Notes: generated by a model from the sequence alone, not told the origin. A stretch of DNA of 64,000 bases from Deltaproteobacteria bacterium (GCA_019310485.1 JAFDEF010000008.1:57638-121637), one strand, 5' to 3'; shown: positions 46,656 through 56,538, counted from the stretch's first letter. Made by a program: numbers and translations.

Positions 46656-46750
46656 CACAATACTTCAAGAAAGGATGAGGAAAGAATTAGAGGTGGAAAG
46701 ACTCAGGGGTGTCAAAGAGCCGCTTCTGTCAAATGTGTAGGTTTGACCCC
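46634..46750. mobile_element. MITE-like element copy 1, 117 bp, 24-bp perfect terminal inverted repeats
   Basis: GGGGTCAAACCTACACATTTGACA...TGTCAAATGTGTAGGTTTGACCCC; second copy at 50409-50524. Confidence 0.88.
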
Positions 46751-47339
46751 TTCAACTTCAAGCCTCGGCGAAAAGCTTTTATGTTCAGGCCACGGAGCTG
46801 GGAAGAAGTTGATGACTGGATGATGCTTTCAAATGTACGTGGTGAAAGGGGAATCCATCCGGAACCGTAAAGAGCACCTAACATGACCATATTGAGAACC
46901 TGAATATTCCCGAGCTCTTTCGCCACCCGCGTGGCATTAATGAACGCAGTTTTTGAAGTAAGATTCTCGATGGCAGAGTGGAGCTCTTGAGCTTCAGGGT
47001 ACTGAAAGCGACCTGCCTGAACCCCAATGGGCCAAACGGGTTGATCATTAATGATGGCGCGTGTGGTTTCTCTGCCAAACTGGGTCAGGATTCTTAAAGC
47101 CTCCAGCGGCTCAAATGCGACAAGAATATCCAGGGAACGGCAGGGTATCAAGGGAGGCAAAAGGTATCCCTTGAATAACCTTACATGGCTGGCCACAGAT
47201 CCCCCTCGCTGGGTAAGACCAAACACATCACCGACCGTAACCTCCCAACCAGCCTCAAGACCAGCAGTAGCAAGAAGCTTTGCAGCCAGCACGTTGCCCT
47301 GCCCGCCAACGCCTGTGATAATGATATTGATACCCATGT
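46729..47339 (-). CDS. iorB: Indolepyruvate:ferredoxin oxidoreductase beta subunit; C-terminal residues contributed by MITE-like element
   Basis: MGINIIITGVGGQGNVLAAKLLATAGLEAGWEVTVGDVFGLTQRGGSVASHVRL; ends KGSNLHI-stop; ORF track extends upstream to 47436. Confidence 0.9.
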
Positions 47340-47348
47340 TTTCGGTAC

Positions 47349-49289
47349 TCAAGCTGATCGCCCCTCTTTCTGGATGTTGACCAAAGATATTGCCTGCCGC
47401 GGGCAAAGTTGAACACACAGGCCACAGCCATTGCATGTATCTTCGTTGATAAAGGCTCTGTCTTTGTCCTTGTCATACTGAATGGACGGACAAGCAAGGA
47501 CCCTGCTGCAAAAGCGGTTGCAGCCGCAAATCTCTCCAATACAGCTTTCAGGATCAATTCTGGCCTTCAGAATTTCTTCAGCCGCCCTTGTTTTCTTTTC
47601 AAATGTGGCGCAAGGCCTTCGAAACACCAGGAACCTCAGCCCTTCTTCCTGCAGGGCAGCATAAACGGCATGGATGCTTTCTTGAATGTCCTCAATTGGA
47701 TCAAGAACAGTGATTTTCGCTCCAACGCTCCGTGCAATATCTTCTGCCAGGACAGGTCGGGTGGCTTTGCCTGTGGCAGTGAAAGGACTTGCAGGGTTCA
47801 CCTGAAAGCCGGTCATGGCAGTAACAGCATTATCAAGCACAATAAAAAGCCCATCTGCCTTGTTGAATGCAGCATTTATCAAGGCCGGCAGTCCGGCATG
47901 AAAAAAAGTTGAATCCCCAATGACTGCCACCACGGGCTGATTAAACCCAAAGGATGCCATCTGGCTGAAGCCGCATGCGTTCCCCATGCCAGAACCCATA
48001 CAGTGAAGCGCTTTGATCTGGTTAAACCCTGTGGGCCCTGCTCCCAGTCCATAGCAACCAATATCTCCCACCACGAAACCTTTTCGCCCATCTAGTTCTA
48101 GCGCTGCCTTGATTGCAAGAAAGGAAGCACGGTGCGGGCAACCATCGCAAAACGCGACTTCCCTGGGCACAAGCAGTATTGAAGCTTGCTTTCTTGCGTC
48201 TTCATAAGGAGATGCACACGCAGAGATTTCCTTGTTGAAAATTCGCCCTAGAGCATCCAGTACGATATCGGTATTCATTTCGCCCACACCCGGCCCACTG
48301 GGGCCGTAAATATCCCCTGTATTCTTGCCATAAAAACTAACTGCACCAAGTTTTGATGCGTGTTCGGCATAAAGAACCTTAACCTGGTCTTCCAGGAAGG
48401 GATCGATTTCTTCCACGAAAAGCACGTCTTTTGCCTGCTTAAGATAAGCGCGGATCAAGTGCGAGGGAGGAGGCCAGATAGTCCCGATCTTCAAGATTCC
48501 GATTTGTTGTTCGAGATGAAGCATGTTCACAGCCTCGCGTGCATAAAGAGCACCCAGACCCGTAGCCATGATAATGAAATTCGCGTCATTTGGTCCCGTA
48601 TACTCATTAAAAGGAGATTTGTCGAAAGTTGTTTGCACTTCTTTCATCTTTTTCAGGAGGTGTGCATGATTTGGAGTCACAAGGAAAGGCAATCCAACCA
48701 GAGGTTTTTCAATGTCAAAGGACGGCTTGATCTCCTGTGATGGTACTGGCCCAAGCTTTACGGCCCCACGGCCGTGTGAGAGCCTCGAGACCGAGCGCAG
48801 AATACACGGAATTCCCATTTGCTCGGAGAACACGAGTAACCATCTCATCATTTCCTTGGCTTCGCTGGCGGTGAAAGGCTCCAGAAGCGGAACCTGGGCA
48901 ATCTTTGCAAAATGGCGTGAGTCTTGTTCATTAGTGCTTGTCATAGGTCCCGGATCATCGCACACCACAAGAACCAGGCCTCCTTTTAGCTCATTCAGGG
49001 AAACGGTTGTCAGGAAATCAGATGCCACGTTCATGCCGTTTTGTTTCATTGTCACAATCGCCCTTAAACCTGAGAAAGCAAAAGCAGCGGCAGCCTCCAG
49101 GGCGATGATTTCATTTGCCGACCACTCAACGCGAATCCCATGCTCCCGCTGATACCCGAACATTGTCTCTACAATTTCTGAGGAAGGATTCCCAGGGTAG
49201 CCCGTTGCATAAGCCGCGCCACCTTCCAGAGCTCCCCTGGCAATTGCTTCATTGCCCATAAGCAGTATACGATCAGCGCTCAGTTCCAT
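47349..49289 (-). CDS. iorA: Indolepyruvate:ferredoxin oxidoreductase alpha subunit
   Basis: LLMGNEAIARGALEGGAAYATGYPGNPSSEIVE, GDIGCYGLG, GDSTFFHAGLPALINAAFN, C-terminal [4Fe-4S] CNGCGLCVQLCP. Confidence 0.94.
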   Translation of the reverse strand: MELSADRILLMGNEAIARGALEGGAAYATGYPGNPSSEIVETMFGYQREHGIRVEWSANEIIALEAAAAFAFSGLRAIVTMKQNGMNVASDFLTTVSLNELKGGLVLVVCDDPGPMTSTNEQDSRHFAKIAQVPLLEPFTASEAKEMMRWLLVFSEQMGIPCILRSVSRLSHGRGAVKLGPVPSQEIKPSFDIEKPLVGLPFLVTPNHAHLLKKMKEVQTTFDKSPFNEYTGPNDANFIIMATGLGALYAREAVNMLHLEQQIGILKIGTIWPPPSHLIRAYLKQAKDVLFVEEIDPFLEDQVKVLYAEHASKLGAVSFYGKNTGDIYGPSGPGVGEMNTDIVLDALGRIFNKEISACASPYEDARKQASILLVPREVAFCDGCPHRASFLAIKAALELDGRKGFVVGDIGCYGLGAGPTGFNQIKALHCMGSGMGNACGFSQMASFGFNQPVVAVIGDSTFFHAGLPALINAAFNKADGLFIVLDNAVTAMTGFQVNPASPFTATGKATRPVLAEDIARSVGAKITVLDPIEDIQESIHAVYAALQEEGLRFLVFRRPCATFEKKTRAAEEILKARIDPESCIGEICGCNRFCSRVLACPSIQYDKDKDRAFINEDTCNGCGLCVQLCPRQAISLVNIQKEGRSA

Positions 49290-50394
49290 TTTTGTCCTCG
49301 TCCCTTATTTTCTTTCCCAGCTTGATAATGCGTTCGTAGTAAGGAAGTCTCTTAGCCCGGGCTTCAGCTTCCTTAAGGGCCTGTTCCTTCTTGTTCAAAG
49401 AAGCCTCCCTCAAATGATCCCATGCTTTTTGATCAAGGGATCCGGTTTCAATGATTCCCGCGCCCACGGCAGATTCGAGCATAGAGGCTCCTTGCTCTGT
49501 TCTTGTAATCACAGTGTTCCATCCGGCTTTTCCCTCAACCATGCCGATGGATATGTCCGCATTCTCAGCCGTCATGTCAAGGCATACCTTGCAGCCCGGA
49601 CGGACATGCTTGCCCACCTCGTCAAGAGGAATGGTTTTCCGCTCCCCGCCGACGTCAATAACCATGATGTTGGCAGGAGGAGGTGGTATGTCCATAGCTT
49701 TAACAAAGCGTGATCCGACATGCCTGTTAAGGAGGGCGCGCCAGCCTGCCTGGCTGAGAGCCCATGTGCAAAACAAGCCGATGATTAAACTGACGCTCGC
49801 TTTCTCAACTCCATCCTCACGAGGCTGAAGTTGTTTTTTCCTCAGGCCAGTTGCCTGGCAGGGTAGGGCAACCACGCCAATTTTGCCGGAACCTGCCGTG
49901 CAGGCCCTGTTCACCTCTTTGTTTGTTGGGGAAAGGGCGTACTTGGATCCACCAGCAGAAATGATTTCTTCTTCATTTTTGACAATCGCGGGGTGGGGAA
50001 AATTTCCGACAGCTTTGGTTACAACGGCATAGTCAATAAGGCCCTGTCTCATGGCCTCCACCAGCAGAGCAGTTACAGTTCCGCCGTATTGAAAAAAAGA
50101 GTGTTTCCCGGAAAGCCGACTCCGGGCAATCAAATAGTTGCTGTAATTGCCGACCGGCCCCCCGTAGCCAACGTCGCCGCAAAGGGCTTCTGCAATACGG
50201 GGGTCAGGTATGGTGCGGGGGCAATAACGGTAGCAATTTCCAGAAGCGATCTGGCAGTCGGCCAGGACGGCAATTCGATCCTCTATTGAAATAATGTTAG
50301 GACACAGGTTTACGCAGGTACCACAAGCTGTGCATACGTCTGTACCCAGCACTTCCTCGCGCAGTCGTTTTAAGTCGTTTTGCATACCACACAT
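49273..50394 (-). CDS. Coenzyme F420 hydrogenase/dehydrogenase beta subunit (FrhB/FdhB)-like protein
   Basis: CTACGTCVNLCPNIISIED, GPVGNYSNYLIARS, QYGGTVTALLVEAMRQGLID, KIGVVALPCQATGLRK, CLDMTAENADISIG; overlaps iorA start. Confidence 0.88.
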   Translation of the reverse strand: MCGMQNDLKRLREEVLGTDVCTACGTCVNLCPNIISIEDRIAVLADCQIASGNCYRYCPRTIPDPRIAEALCGDVGYGGPVGNYSNYLIARSRLSGKHSFFQYGGTVTALLVEAMRQGLIDYAVVTKAVGNFPHPAIVKNEEEIISAGGSKYALSPTNKEVNRACTAGSGKIGVVALPCQATGLRKKQLQPREDGVEKASVSLIIGLFCTWALSQAGWRALLNRHVGSRFVKAMDIPPPPANIMVIDVGGERKTIPLDEVGKHVRPGCKVCLDMTAENADISIGMVEGKAGWNTVITRTEQGASMLESAVGAGIIETGSLDQKAWDHLREASLNKKEQALKEAEARAKRLPYYERIIKLGKKIRDEDKNGTER

Positions 50395-51979: not shown

Positions 51980-52597
51980 ATGAATAGTGAAATACAAAAG
52001 GTGAAGGAGGAAATCCTGGCTGCCGCGAAAAGAGCTTACCAGATAGGCCTTCAGACGGGTAATGGCGGCAATTTGAGCGCTCGCGTGCCGGGAACGGACA
52101 AGATCATTATTAAAGCCAGTGGATATTCTTTTGGCGAGTGTACTACCGAGAATCTGGTGACAGTGAACCTTAAGGGTGAAGTACTGGGTGAGGGGAACAA
52201 GCCATCCCGAGAAATAAGAACCCATCTGGCCATCTACAACCACAGGGAGGATATTTACGGTATTTTTCATTGTCATTCTCCTTGGGCAATCGCTTGTGCT
52301 GAAGAAGCCACCGAGATCCGGCCCATAACAGTTCACGGCAAGGCAAAAATAGGCTCGATACCGGTTCTTAGGGTACTAGGTCATGCGGATGAAGCAGTTG
52401 AAAAAGGGGTTCTTGAAATGCTGAGAGCAAACCCCGCTCTTTCGGCATTTATACAGACAAGGCATGGTATTTTCACTCTTGCAAAGACCATTACCCTGGC
52501 TGAGCATCACGCGGAACTTGTTGAGGAGATAGTCCAGATTGAGTTGCTGGCAGCACTGAGGCAATTTCTAACCAGAAATCTTAAAGAGGAATGTTGA
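51980..52597 (+). CDS. Class II aldolase/adducin family protein
   Basis: GLQTGNGGNLSARVPGTDKIIIKASGYSFGE, REIRTHLAIYNHREDIYGIFHCHSPWAIA. Confidence 0.92.
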   Translation: MNSEIQKVKEEILAAAKRAYQIGLQTGNGGNLSARVPGTDKIIIKASGYSFGECTTENLVTVNLKGEVLGEGNKPSREIRTHLAIYNHREDIYGIFHCHSPWAIACAEEATEIRPITVHGKAKIGSIPVLRVLGHADEAVEKGVLEMLRANPALSAFIQTRHGIFTLAKTITLAEHHAELVEEIVQIELLAALRQFLTRNLKEEC

Positions 52598-52629
52598 TGA
52601 TCGCGGTATTCAAAGAGGGGGTATAAATA

Positions 52630-53883
52630 GTGACCAAGAAGATCCTCGTAGTTGCTACACTTGATACTAAAGAGCAAGAGGTAGCGTTTGTAAAGGACCT
52701 CATAGAGCTAAGGGGGCATATCCCGCTGATCATGGACTGTGGTGTTTTGAAGGATCCTTCTCTCACACCTGATATCTCGAGACAGGAGGTGGCTAAAGCG
52801 GCAAATGCGACCATTGAGCAGATACTCCACAAGAAAGACAAGAACTTCGCCATCCGTACCATGACAATGGGAGCCGTTGAAGTGGCTAAGAAACTCCATG
52901 GGCAGGGAAAGATAAATGGAGTCATTTCACTCGGAGGCATTCAGGGCACCTTTATTGGAACTACAGTTATGCAAGCCCTGCCGTTTGGCGTTCCCAAGGT
53001 CATGGTTTCTGCCGTAGCAAATGGGCAGGCAACGTTTGGACCCTTTGTAGGAATAAGGGATGTCACGATTCTTCATTCAGTGGCAGACATACTGGGGTTG
53101 AACGAAGTTACAAGACACGCGTTGGCTGAAGGGGTGGGTTCGGTGGTCGGGATGGTTGAGATGGACTATGGTATTGCAGGTTCATCAAAGCCTGCGGTTG
53201 CCGTTACCTCTGCAGGCGTCACCACTCCATGCGCGAATCGTGCACGAGAGTTGTTTGAATCATTGGGTTACGAAATCATAGCATTTCACTGCAACGGCAT
53301 AGGAGCACAGGCAATGGAGGAGATGGCCGGGGCTGGGAAGCTTTCAGGAATCTTCGATTTAAGCCCACATGACATAACAGATTATCTTTATGGTGGGATT
53401 ATGCCTGCGTCACCTGAAAGAATGAAAGCTAGTTGTCTCAAAGGAGTGCCACAGGTTATTGCACCCGGGTGCGCCGATATTGTTCTCTATGGCCCGGTAG
53501 AGAAAATACCCTCTGACATATTAAAGAGAAAGTATGTAATCCACAATCCTATTCACACTCATGTCAAGGCCAATCGGGAAGAGATGATGGGGCTGGGGCG
53601 TTTTATCGGAGAAAGGCTGAGCCAGTCTAAAGGCCCGGCTACTGTTCTGATTCCAAAGAAAGGATTCAGCCAGCTCAACAATCCTGAGGGCCCGCTCTAT
53701 GAGCCGGAATCGGATGAGGGATTCGTGGAAGGACTGAAGCAAGGTCTAAAAGGCCTTCATTCTAAGAATATCAAAGTCAAGCAAGTAGATATGCATATTA
53801 ATGACCCGGAATTTGCTGAGATGGCAGTTAAAGAACTTCACGGTATGATCCAGGAAAAACAGGCACAAGGAGAATTTTTGTAG
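52630..53883 (+). CDS. Tm-1-like ATP-binding / UPF0261 family protein
   Basis: KKILVVATLDTKEQEVAFVKDLIELRGHIPLIMDCGVL, ISLGGIQGTFIGTTVMQALPFGVPKVMVSAVANG; likely GTG start. Confidence 0.9.
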   Translation: MTKKILVVATLDTKEQEVAFVKDLIELRGHIPLIMDCGVLKDPSLTPDISRQEVAKAANATIEQILHKKDKNFAIRTMTMGAVEVAKKLHGQGKINGVISLGGIQGTFIGTTVMQALPFGVPKVMVSAVANGQATFGPFVGIRDVTILHSVADILGLNEVTRHALAEGVGSVVGMVEMDYGIAGSSKPAVAVTSAGVTTPCANRARELFESLGYEIIAFHCNGIGAQAMEEMAGAGKLSGIFDLSPHDITDYLYGGIMPASPERMKASCLKGVPQVIAPGCADIVLYGPVEKIPSDILKRKYVIHNPIHTHVKANREEMMGLGRFIGERLSQSKGPATVLIPKKGFSQLNNPEGPLYEPESDEGFVEGLKQGLKGLHSKNIKVKQVDMHINDPEFAEMAVKELHGMIQEKQAQGEFL

Positions 53884-53888
53884 CCACC

Positions 53889-55211
53889 TTGTACGGAGGG
53901 GCGGCAGTTGTTGAAATGACCAAGAAGCAGAGCAAGGATTTTTTTTCAGATAGATCCTCACTAGATATGGATCAGTATCTTGTCTTTGACTATGTCTTTG
54001 AATCCTTCATAGACCCTGAAGAGGCAGCCGCACACCTATGCCAGGAGCAATCAACTGCCCAGTGGAAAAGGGTGGGAGTGGATGAGGATCTTCGCGAGCA
54101 GTTCGGAGCAAAGGTGATTGAGCTCAGTGTGGAAAAAACCCTGGATCACCCGAGCCTAAAGCTTCCATCGGTGTCGGACACTCGGTCCTATGTTTGCAGG
54201 GTAAAAATTGCTCACCCCCATGGAAATTTTGGTCCAAAGCTGCCCAATCTCCTTACCGCTGCTTGCGGCGAAGGTGCTTTTTTCTCTCCCGGTATCTCTC
54301 TGATCAAGTTGATAGATATTGAATTTCCTTCAAAGTTCCTGGAGCATTTCGAGGGGCCGAAATTTGGCGTTGAGGGACTCCGAGACATCCTGGGGATTTA
54401 CGATCGCCCTATTTTTTTTGGCGTTGTTAAGCCTAACATTGGACTTCCCCCAGAGCCTTTTGCTGAACTTGCCCGCCAGAGCTGGCTTGGCGGGCTGGAT
54501 ATTGCAAAGGACGACGAGTTGCTTGGCGATGTTCCGTGGTCACCTTTGAGCAAGAGGACGGCCCTGGTGGGCAAAGTGCGGAAGGAATGCGAGAAGGCTA
54601 CCGGCATGGCAAAAATATATCTAGTCAACATTACCGATGAGGTGGATCGTCTCATAGAACTTCACGACATTGTTGTCAGGAACGGGGCAAATGCAGTTAT
54701 GCTAAACACGATGACCGTAGGGCTGAGTGCTGCGAGAATGTTGCAAAAGCACACAAAAGTCCCCCTGGTAGCTCACTTTGACTTTATAGCAGCCTTTACC
54801 AGGATCCCAAATTATGGTGTTAGCTCTGAGCTGTTCACAAAGCTTCAGAGGCTTGCCGGTTTTGATTCGATTATATTGCCTGGGTTTGGATCCAGAATGA
54901 AGACATCGGATAGTGAGGTTTTCAATAACGTGGAGGAGTGCTTGAAGCCAATGGGCCACATAAAGCCCTCGCTTCCGGTGCCTGCAGGAAGCCAGTGGGC
55001 AGCTTCAACCGGAGAACTTCACCAAAAGCTAAATACCATTGATTTTGGAATAGTTCCCGGCAGGGGAGTGTTCGGTCACCCAATGGGGCCCAGGGCAGGG
55101 GCTGCCAGTTTGCTTCAGGGCTGGGAGGCCTACCACAGGGGTATTCCCCTTGAAGATTACGCTAAAAGTCATGTAGAACTGAGGGCTTCAATGGAGGCTT
55201 TTGGGAACTAA
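53889..55211 (+). CDS. RuBisCO-like protein (RuBisCO large-chain superfamily, form IV-type)
   Basis: YLVFDYVFESFIDPEEAAAHLCQEQSTAQW; GVVKPNIGLPPEPFAELARQSWLGGLDIAKDDELLGD (Lys-x-Asp-Glu metal-site motif); GPRAGAASLLQGWEAY. Confidence 0.93.
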   Translation: MYGGAAVVEMTKKQSKDFFSDRSSLDMDQYLVFDYVFESFIDPEEAAAHLCQEQSTAQWKRVGVDEDLREQFGAKVIELSVEKTLDHPSLKLPSVSDTRSYVCRVKIAHPHGNFGPKLPNLLTAACGEGAFFSPGISLIKLIDIEFPSKFLEHFEGPKFGVEGLRDILGIYDRPIFFGVVKPNIGLPPEPFAELARQSWLGGLDIAKDDELLGDVPWSPLSKRTALVGKVRKECEKATGMAKIYLVNITDEVDRLIELHDIVVRNGANAVMLNTMTVGLSAARMLQKHTKVPLVAHFDFIAAFTRIPNYGVSSELFTKLQRLAGFDSIILPGFGSRMKTSDSEVFNNVEECLKPMGHIKPSLPVPAGSQWAASTGELHQKLNTIDFGIVPGRGVFGHPMGPRAGAASLLQGWEAYHRGIPLEDYAKSHVELRASMEAFGN

Positions 55212-55237: not shown

Positions 55238-55693
55238 CTATTTTATCCTCGCCTTGTCATTGCAGTATTCATATATCCTCCGAATCTTAGGCTCTGATCT
55301 TCCCCCCGGGATGTATTCTGATTGCATCCAGATCGTTACAAGGGTTTTCGCGAGTTCAGGACCGGTCACCTGGGAACCCATGGTCATGATGTTTGCGTTG
55401 TTGCTCTTGATTGAACGTTCAGTGGAATAAGCATTGGAGCAAAGAGCCGCGTAAGCGCCCGGAACCTTGTTGGCTGCAATGCACATTCCAATCCCTGTGC
55501 CACAAATGAGAATTCCCCGCTCGTGTTTTCCCGATGCAACGGCTTCGGCAACCTTTATTGCAACATTGGCATAGATAGGATCCTCACTTCCGTAATCTTC
55601 CCATTCATGGGCCAGATCAGTCAGATGTTTCTTGATAATCTCTTTGAGTTCTGCTGCATTCGGATCGCATCCTATAGCGATCTTTTTCATCAT
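55238..55693 (-). CDS. rpiB: RpiB/LacA/LacB family sugar-phosphate isomerase
   Basis: MKKIAIGCDPNAAELKEIIKKHL, GILICGTGIGMCIAANKVPGAYAALCSNAYSTERSIKSNNANIMTMGSQV. Confidence 0.92.
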   Translation of the reverse strand: MMKKIAIGCDPNAAELKEIIKKHLTDLAHEWEDYGSEDPIYANVAIKVAEAVASGKHERGILICGTGIGMCIAANKVPGAYAALCSNAYSTERSIKSNNANIMTMGSQVTGPELAKTLVTIWMQSEYIPGGRSEPKIRRIYEYCNDKARIK

Positions 55694-55782: not shown

Positions 55783-56538
55783 TTAAGGATAGACTTGCTT
55801 CTCCAGGTGCGCCGGGTCATGAGTGACCATGATAGAATCGGCCCTTCTAATGACTTCTTCCATGCTGTGCCAGAGTTCAACGATGTTATAAAATCTTCCG
55901 GGTGGATAAAAGGGCCATCCGTTCTCCTGGTCGGGCTCTAGATTTTCACGCAAAAAGAAGAGATCTCCTGCGAGCACGTAAATGCCTTTTATCGTCTGCA
56001 CGGACACGGCCATGTGCCCCGGGCTATGGCCGGGTGTCTGAAAACACCGGATTCCTTCCAAAATCTCTTCATCTCCCTGGATAAGGTTAAAGTGACACCC
56101 TTCCCACGGGCACCCGATGCCCAAAGAAGGAGTCTCATATGACTTGGCGTAAAAGGGGATTGGGTTCAGCGCAAACATATATTCCTTTTCGCTGACGAAA
56201 AGCCGGGCTCTGGAAAATTTGTCAACGTTGTAGCAATGGTCCCAGTGAAGGTGGGTAAATATAATGATTTCAATCTCCTCGAGCCCAATGCCGAGCGCCT
56301 GCACCTGTTCGTGAATGGCCTGGCCGGGATCCTGGCGTCCCTCGTGGTGGTACTTGCGGGAGCGTTGTGTATCGGCCATTCCAGTATCCACAAGTATCTT
56401 GTGGCCGCCTCCTTCGATCAAAAATGCAAATACCGGATGCTCAATGATCTGACCGTGGCCTCTGCGAAAAGTGCCGTACCATCCTTTATCAAGTAGTTGC
56501 CAGCCCGTGTTAAGGGGTTTAATAGTGTAATTTGTCAT
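55783..56538 (-). CDS. MBL-fold metallohydrolase, N-acyl homoserine lactonase-like family
   Basis: KILVDTGMADTQ, EIIIFTHLHWDHCYNVDKF, CFQTPGHSPGHMAVSVQT. Confidence 0.87.
   Translation of the reverse strand: MTNYTIKPLNTGWQLLDKGWYGTFRRGHGQIIEHPVFAFLIEGGGHKILVDTGMADTQRSRKYHHEGRQDPGQAIHEQVQALGIGLEEIEIIIFTHLHWDHCYNVDKFSRARLFVSEKEYMFALNPIPFYAKSYETPSLGIGCPWEGCHFNLIQGDEEILEGIRCFQTPGHSPGHMAVSVQTIKGIYVLAGDLFFLRENLEPDQENGWPFYPPGRFYNIVELWHSMEEVIRRADSIMVTHDPAHLEKQVYP

Follow-up and report, generated by a model that had tools for sequence, protein, structure and literature searches.

The locus lies in a window of 64,000 nucleotides from a Deltaproteobacteria bacterium (GCA_019310485.1 JAFDEF010000008.1:57638-121637). 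Three ORFs were confirmed on the plus strand at 51980-55211: a class II (fuculose-type) aldolase/decarboxylase gene (51980..52597; PF00596, 137 bits), a gene for a UPF0261/Tm-1-like ATP-binding-domain protein, hereafter Tm-1 (52630..53883; PF06792 and PF23189), and a RuBisCO-like protein (RLP) gene (ORF 53889..55211, likely 53916..55211; PF00016). Convergent to the RLP gene, on the minus strand, are genes for an RpiB/LacAB-type sugar-phosphate isomerase (RpiB; 55238..55693; PF02502) and an AHL-lactonase/4-pyridoxolactonase-like MBL-fold hydrolase (MBL; 55783..56538; PF00753). An earlier note, made from the sequence alone, had described this layout, and all of the ORFs lie where it had placed them. 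It had also put the RLP gene 5 bp after the Tm-1 gene, which holds for the TTG start at 53889 only; the alignment of R. palustris RLP2 to the window RLP begins at an internal ATG (53916), and because homologs begin there, the spacer is probably 32 bp. The aldolase and Tm-1 genes are also separated by 32 bp, and distances of 32 bp and 32 (or 5) bp make it likely that the aldolase, Tm-1 and RLP genes form one transcription unit. MBL and RpiB likely make up a second unit, facing the first at a distance of 26 bp. M24 peptidase, acyl-CoA synthetase and LIV transporter genes of the window were set aside as parts of the module because they were not seen in related loci. Elsewhere in the window (46729-50394), an indolepyruvate ferredoxin oxidoreductase-like gene pair precedes an ORF resembling the coenzyme F420 hydrogenase beta subunit; by these names, given by eye from the translations, the region resembles a cluster for the oxidation of amino acids or keto acids.

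The fold match to PF00016 (163 bits), together with replaced catalytic residues, assigns the window RLP to form IV of the RuBisCO superfamily. In form I numbering, it retains E60, W66, K175, K201, D203, E204 and H294, and carries the substitutions T65Q, N123E, K177N, R295F, H298I, H327I, K334R, S379A and G381S. The metal/carbamate site is preserved, as is one lysine, but the second phosphate site (R295, H327 and S379, here F, I and A) and the carboxylation lysine are gone, and R295F, H298I and H327I produce an apolar distal pocket with a single phosphate site left. A carboxylating RuBisCO of forms I-III was rejected on positions 177/295/327/334/379, which read N, F, I, R and A, and the score on the type III RuBisCO model is far under its cut-off. 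Judged by this residue map, the protein is almost certainly unable to fix CO2, in line with the earlier note. The motifs quoted there (GVVKPN, AKDDE and, in the loop-6 region, ILPGFGSRMKTSD) read as given in the translation. The departures from RuBisCO at KPN and loop 6 are real, but they are not special to this protein: KPN, R at 334, E at 123 and F at 295 are common to the window RLP, Chlorobaculum tepidum RLP and R. palustris RLP2, and because nearly all of the changes are common to the latter two, the odd motifs are best read as a signature of the Photo RLPs. Two characterized identities were also rejected: OiaX (NF042437, 230 bits against a cut-off of 700; separate clade) and MtnW (TIGR03332, 158 bits against 514; no mtn neighbors).

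Among PDB entries, the window RLP matches R. palustris RLP2 (2qyg) and C. tepidum RLP (1tel/1ykw) best, with ~59% identity to both over the whole chain length. In two maximum-likelihood trees, it falls within the Photo (IV-Photo) superclade with support of 99/99 and 100/100, while OiaX-type RLPs (which are paired with DUF1537 kinases), MtnW and carboxylases branch apart. The earlier note had proposed placing the protein against MtnW, OiaX and other form IV clades, and its position proved to be in the Photo superclade and not near OiaX. The window RLP forms a subclade of its own with the RLP of G008, another genome of its family, and the RLPs of Chloroflexota, supported at 99/96 in the first tree and at 94/98 in the second, to which four more rows had been added. 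This subclade is sister to, and not inside, the clade of phototroph RLPs (100/98-99 on its own), which comprises three sequences in these trees. The window RLP thus lies outside the IV-Photo clade proper by its sister position and its other neighbors, and the case foreseen in the earlier note, in which it would group inside a characterized clade with the same neighbors, is not what the trees returned. Among the residues that are constant in the subclade and differ from those of phototroph RLPs, several lie beside the active site, namely V294, D298, K338, A366 and Q369; the subclade has HFDF and a PAGSQWA loop where phototroph RLPs have HFPF and PGGSDSA. The changes at 298 and 366-374 adjoin the active site. 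A Nitrospirae RLP encountered in the same survey (L010, 9980-11305; 41% identical) sits outside both the Photo and OiaX-type clades; it retains most RuBisCO residues (R295, H327, K334 and SGG), but K177 is replaced by C and H298 by A.

Gene neighborhoods separate the subclade from other Photo RLPs as well. In Thiodictyon, idi and YjbQ precede the Photo RLP within the photosynthesis gene cluster. Among Deltaproteobacteria-labelled MAGs of a further order (that of G443), 9 of 9 genomes have an RLP of the Photo superclade, which adjoins a polyprenyl synthetase gene in seven of the loci read, with YjbQ (UPF0047) between them in three. This pattern (L097, L101 and L103, also L096, L098, L100 and L102) mirrors the idi-YjbQ-RLP order of Thiodictyon. 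It points to a role in isoprenoid- or thiamine/DXP-linked metabolism for Photo RLPs outside the window subclade. No idi, polyprenyl synthetase or YjbQ gene was seen beside RLPs of the window subclade in the loci read, where RpiB, MBL, Tm-1 and aldolase genes stand instead; the contrast covers Thiodictyon and the G443-order loci. In relatives, the module is surrounded by genes for sugar ABC transporters, GH38, sugar dehydrogenases, a SorC/DeoR-type regulator and sugar isomerases, which supports the carbohydrate pathway proposed in the earlier note. Among the loci seen, only those of the window subclade have this sugar context. It could be argued that the protein is an ordinary IV-Photo RLP with a phototroph role (stress/sulfur or isoprenoid-linked) and incidental neighbors, given a common superclade at 99-100% support, an identity of ~59% and active-site substitutions at the same residues. 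We consider this very unlikely, as it is at odds with the separate subclade, the changes at 298 and 366-374 by the active site, the lack of idi, polyprenyl synthetase and YjbQ that the Thiodictyon and G443-order members have, the different, conserved neighbors and the RpiB fusion.

Relatives of the module were found by family- and class-level genome searches and are draft MAGs; phylum-wide sampling returned 1/396 and 1/399 genomes. Aldolase, Tm-1, RLP and RpiB recur in G008, where one contig (L037) carries the aldolase and Tm-1 genes and another (L003) the RLP gene with a convergent RpiB gene, its product 81% identical to the window RpiB. The first 84 bases of L003 encode the C-terminus of Tm-1, directly 5' of RLP; the order is that of the window, divided by an assembly gap. 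In one Chloroflexota family, RLP is present in 12 of 98 genomes, and the module Tm-1 ortholog occurs in 10 of the 12 RLP-positive and 0 of the 86 RLP-negative genomes (Fisher p ~5e-12, a value that overstates independence because these genomes are related). Tm-1, aldolase, MBL and RLP recur together in ten Chloroflexota genomes in the order Tm1-aldII-ADH-GH38-(Gfo/Idh)-sugar ABC transporter-MBL-SorC-TIM-barrel isomerase(s)-RLP, in which ADH is a Zn alcohol dehydrogenase, the regulator is of the SorC/DeoR type and the one or two TIM barrels are xylose-isomerase-like. Tm-1 and RLP share one contig in seven of these genomes, 14-15 kb apart, and the genes between them are largely constant. The Chloroflexota cluster also encodes a solute-binding protein (L005, 4146-5429). 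Beside the module, the window genome has neither a transporter nor a dehydrogenase of this Chloroflexota kind. In eight Chloroflexota genomes, RpiB and RLP are encoded as a single RpiB:RLP ORF of about 610-660 codons; in another (G908), RLP is unfused with no RpiB nearby, and in the draft assembly of G446 the RLP, Tm-1 and MBL genes are all broken. Other arrangements are RLP-RpiB-GntR-Tm1-MBL in one compact stretch in G1045, whose Tm-1 is less closely related (40%), and RLP with MBL-GntR-RpiB in G1041. A gene of the AllG (oxamate carbamoyltransferase subunit) family, an unusual neighbor, lies a few genes from RLP in the latter (L124, 16377-17624).

Because the gene set recurs in other genomes, its association is more than chance. 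The earlier note had allowed that the Tm-1/RLP adjacency might be unique to this genome, and the linkage in G008 and Chloroflexota shows that it is not. RpiB and MBL, which had been treated as bystanders, are core members: gene content across the module loci indicates that RLP, RpiB and MBL are the most conserved core, followed by Tm-1 and then the aldolase. The module is patchily distributed over two bacterial phyla and has probably spread horizontally.

The aldolase (PDB relatives 6voq/6btd) keeps its likely metal-site residues, namely E in PSREI, HxH in FHCHS and H in RHGIF, and orthologs 52-59% identical to it are paired with Tm-1 in 11 other genomes. Aldolase, RpiB and MBL all score below every specific NCBIfam equivalog cut-off. 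For RpiB, an identity as D-erythrulose-4-phosphate isomerase (DerI) was rejected, with 145 bits on NF051858 against a cut-off of 240; the RpiB of the OiaX operon of R. etli scores 258 on the same model. The window RpiB and the fusion RpiBs lack the His of the CDH/SDH motif and have Pro or Asn instead; this His is present in E. coli and Clostridium RpiB, and is likewise missing from the R. etli OiaX-operon RpiB, which has Ser. The missing His hints that the RpiB substrate may not need ring opening. MBL scores below the cut-off of the NCBIfam AiiA-like model, its orthologs in the Chloroflexota clusters are 65-70% identical, and its nearest plasmid homologs are only about 28% identical; it is the probable lactonase of the module. 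RpiB and RLP very likely act on consecutive intermediates, a view that the RpiB:RLP fusion supports.

Taken as a whole, we think it fairly probable that RLP, RpiB, the lactonase-like MBL, Tm-1 and the class II aldolase constitute a five-gene carbohydrate-catabolic module around a non-carboxylating RLP of the Photo superclade, which probably breaks down a phosphorylated sugar or sugar acid. The enzymatic steps, their order and the substrate are proposed by analogy with the OiaX-DUF1537-TIM-RpiB operon of R. etli. MBL would open a sugar lactone, and Tm-1 with ATP would activate the sugar acid or an oxidized form of it, the latter perhaps supplied by the dehydrogenases encoded nearby in Chloroflexota. 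RLP would then make the Mg-enediolate of the resulting monophosphate and rearrange or decarboxylate it, directly preceded or followed by interconversion of an aldose and a ketose phosphate by RpiB. Finally, the class II aldolase would split a ketose phosphate into a triose phosphate and a small aldehyde. OiaX and 3-oxo-isoapionate-4-phosphate RLPs with a DUF1537 kinase belong to D-apiose/apionate pathways (Carter et al. 2018, as cited in PMC6302742). The R. etli operon resembles the module in combining an RLP, an ATP-using partner and RpiB in one sugar-catabolic operon, but its RLP is only ~30% identical and in another clade, and DUF1537 and TIM stand where the window has Tm-1 and a class II aldolase. 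OiaX-type RLPs retain R295, K334 and, in most cases, H327; because these are missing in the window RLP, the OiaX reaction is not simply transferable to it, and the predicted apolar distal pocket speaks against a simple copy of OiaX. Nor can an acid-sugar decarboxylase be read from the active site, since R295, H327 and S379 are F, I and A.

That pocket, with its single phosphate site, speaks for a different reading, in which RLP is a ketose-phosphate isomerase performing 1,2- or 1,3-proton shifts like the R. rubrum 5-methylthioribulose-1-P isomerase, and the module degrades a deoxy- or other apolar-ended sugar phosphate with no sugar acid involved. The aldolase would release DHAP and an aldehyde, as the class II aldolase Ald2 does in the DHAP-ethylene shunt (PMC5893883), and both aldolase and RpiB suit such a ketose-phosphate route. 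R. palustris RLP2, of the same superclade, is a slow methylthioribulose-1-P isomerase in vitro, but no part in MTA metabolism could be detected for it in vivo, and the study assigned it no role (PMC5893883). As the lactonase-like MBL and the dehydrogenases indicate an oxidized sugar, and a DUF1537 kinase takes the place of Tm-1 in one member, we regard this reading as possible but rather unlikely. A variant of methionine or 5'-deoxyadenosine salvage, with RLP and aldolase recycling an MTA- or deoxyadenosine-derived sugar phosphate, appears highly improbable. MtnA homologs occur in 19 of 20 of these genomes and class II aldolases work in the DHAP shunt (PMC5893883), but MtnA is widespread and unlinked, the neighbors are sugar transporters and GH38, and no mtn gene was recognized in the module loci read. 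The gene context agrees with the earlier note in speaking against methionine salvage and showing no mtn genes near RLP: none is adjacent, though an MtnA homolog lies elsewhere in the window genome. The MTA-isoprenoid shunt RLP (R. rubrum/R. palustris RLP1) and the DHAP-ethylene shunt resemble the proposed pathway in using an RLP on a monophosphate and a class II aldolase (PMC5893883), but differ in that the module has no linked mtn genes or cupin; R. palustris RLP2, to which the window RLP is more closely related, is not used in MTA metabolism (PMC5893883).

We therefore regard the five-gene module as a real and conserved variant of carbohydrate catabolism based on an RLP, one not described before within the reach of our searches; the open-access literature searched yielded no account of an RLP fused to RpiB, paired with Tm-1 or occurring in sponge Chloroflexota. 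It gives a first handle on an RLP branch with no assigned function and links Photo-type RLP chemistry to a defined, expressible set of five proteins. The natural RpiB-RLP fusion limits the substrate to something that an aldose/ketose-phosphate isomerase also handles, and UPF0261/Tm-1-like proteins gain a testable metabolic role.

UPF0261/Tm-1-like proteins include the namesake of a plant virus-resistance gene, and no biochemical role for them was found in the literature searched. The PDB relatives of the window protein are 9mpy and Tm-1 (3wry), and an AlphaFold model from the single sequence, without an alignment, has a mean pLDDT of 38. The Tm-1 proteins of the module group in a separate clade (97/96), outside which lie paralogs of the same genomes, among them three further UPF0261 copies from the window genome. 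The module Tm-1 shares the UPF0261 family with plant Tm-1 and with the UPF0261 + PEP_hydrolase (TBST) pair, but has no PEP_hydrolase partner, whereas the other UPF0261 genes looked at are mostly paired with PEP_hydrolase TIM barrels; a separate, canonical pair of this kind is present in the window genome (G000:C51). The best argument for Tm-1 as an ATP-dependent activator, the role suggested in the earlier note, is indirect and comes from G868, an intact member that has an RLP of the window subclade (66% identical), no module Tm-1 ortholog, and a DUF1537 acid-sugar kinase (SBD_N + NBD_C) in its place. Genes for RLP, an FBP-type class II aldolase, this kinase, a TIM-barrel isomerase and an ABC permease follow one another there (L093, C231). 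Neither the window genome nor G008 has DUF1537, and it is also lacking in 8 of the 10 Chloroflexota genomes with the module Tm-1. From this replacement in one genome, Tm-1 can be considered a candidate kinase, but such an activity is conjectural, because the other UPF0261 proteins looked at mostly pair with PEP_hydrolase and not with sugar-acid enzymes. We suggest only tentatively that UPF0261/Tm-1-like proteins may be an uncharacterized family of small-molecule kinases, one that here replaces DUF1537 in an RLP-dependent pathway whose RpiB-RLP pair, often fused into one bifunctional enzyme, would handle consecutive steps on a monophosphorylated sugar (acid). Among UPF0261 genes outside the module, three lie together in the window genome (L036; G000:C51:1-20000), one overlapping PEP_hydrolase and the others by a creatininase or a dehydrogenase-like gene, and one in G008 (L040) adjoins UbiD.
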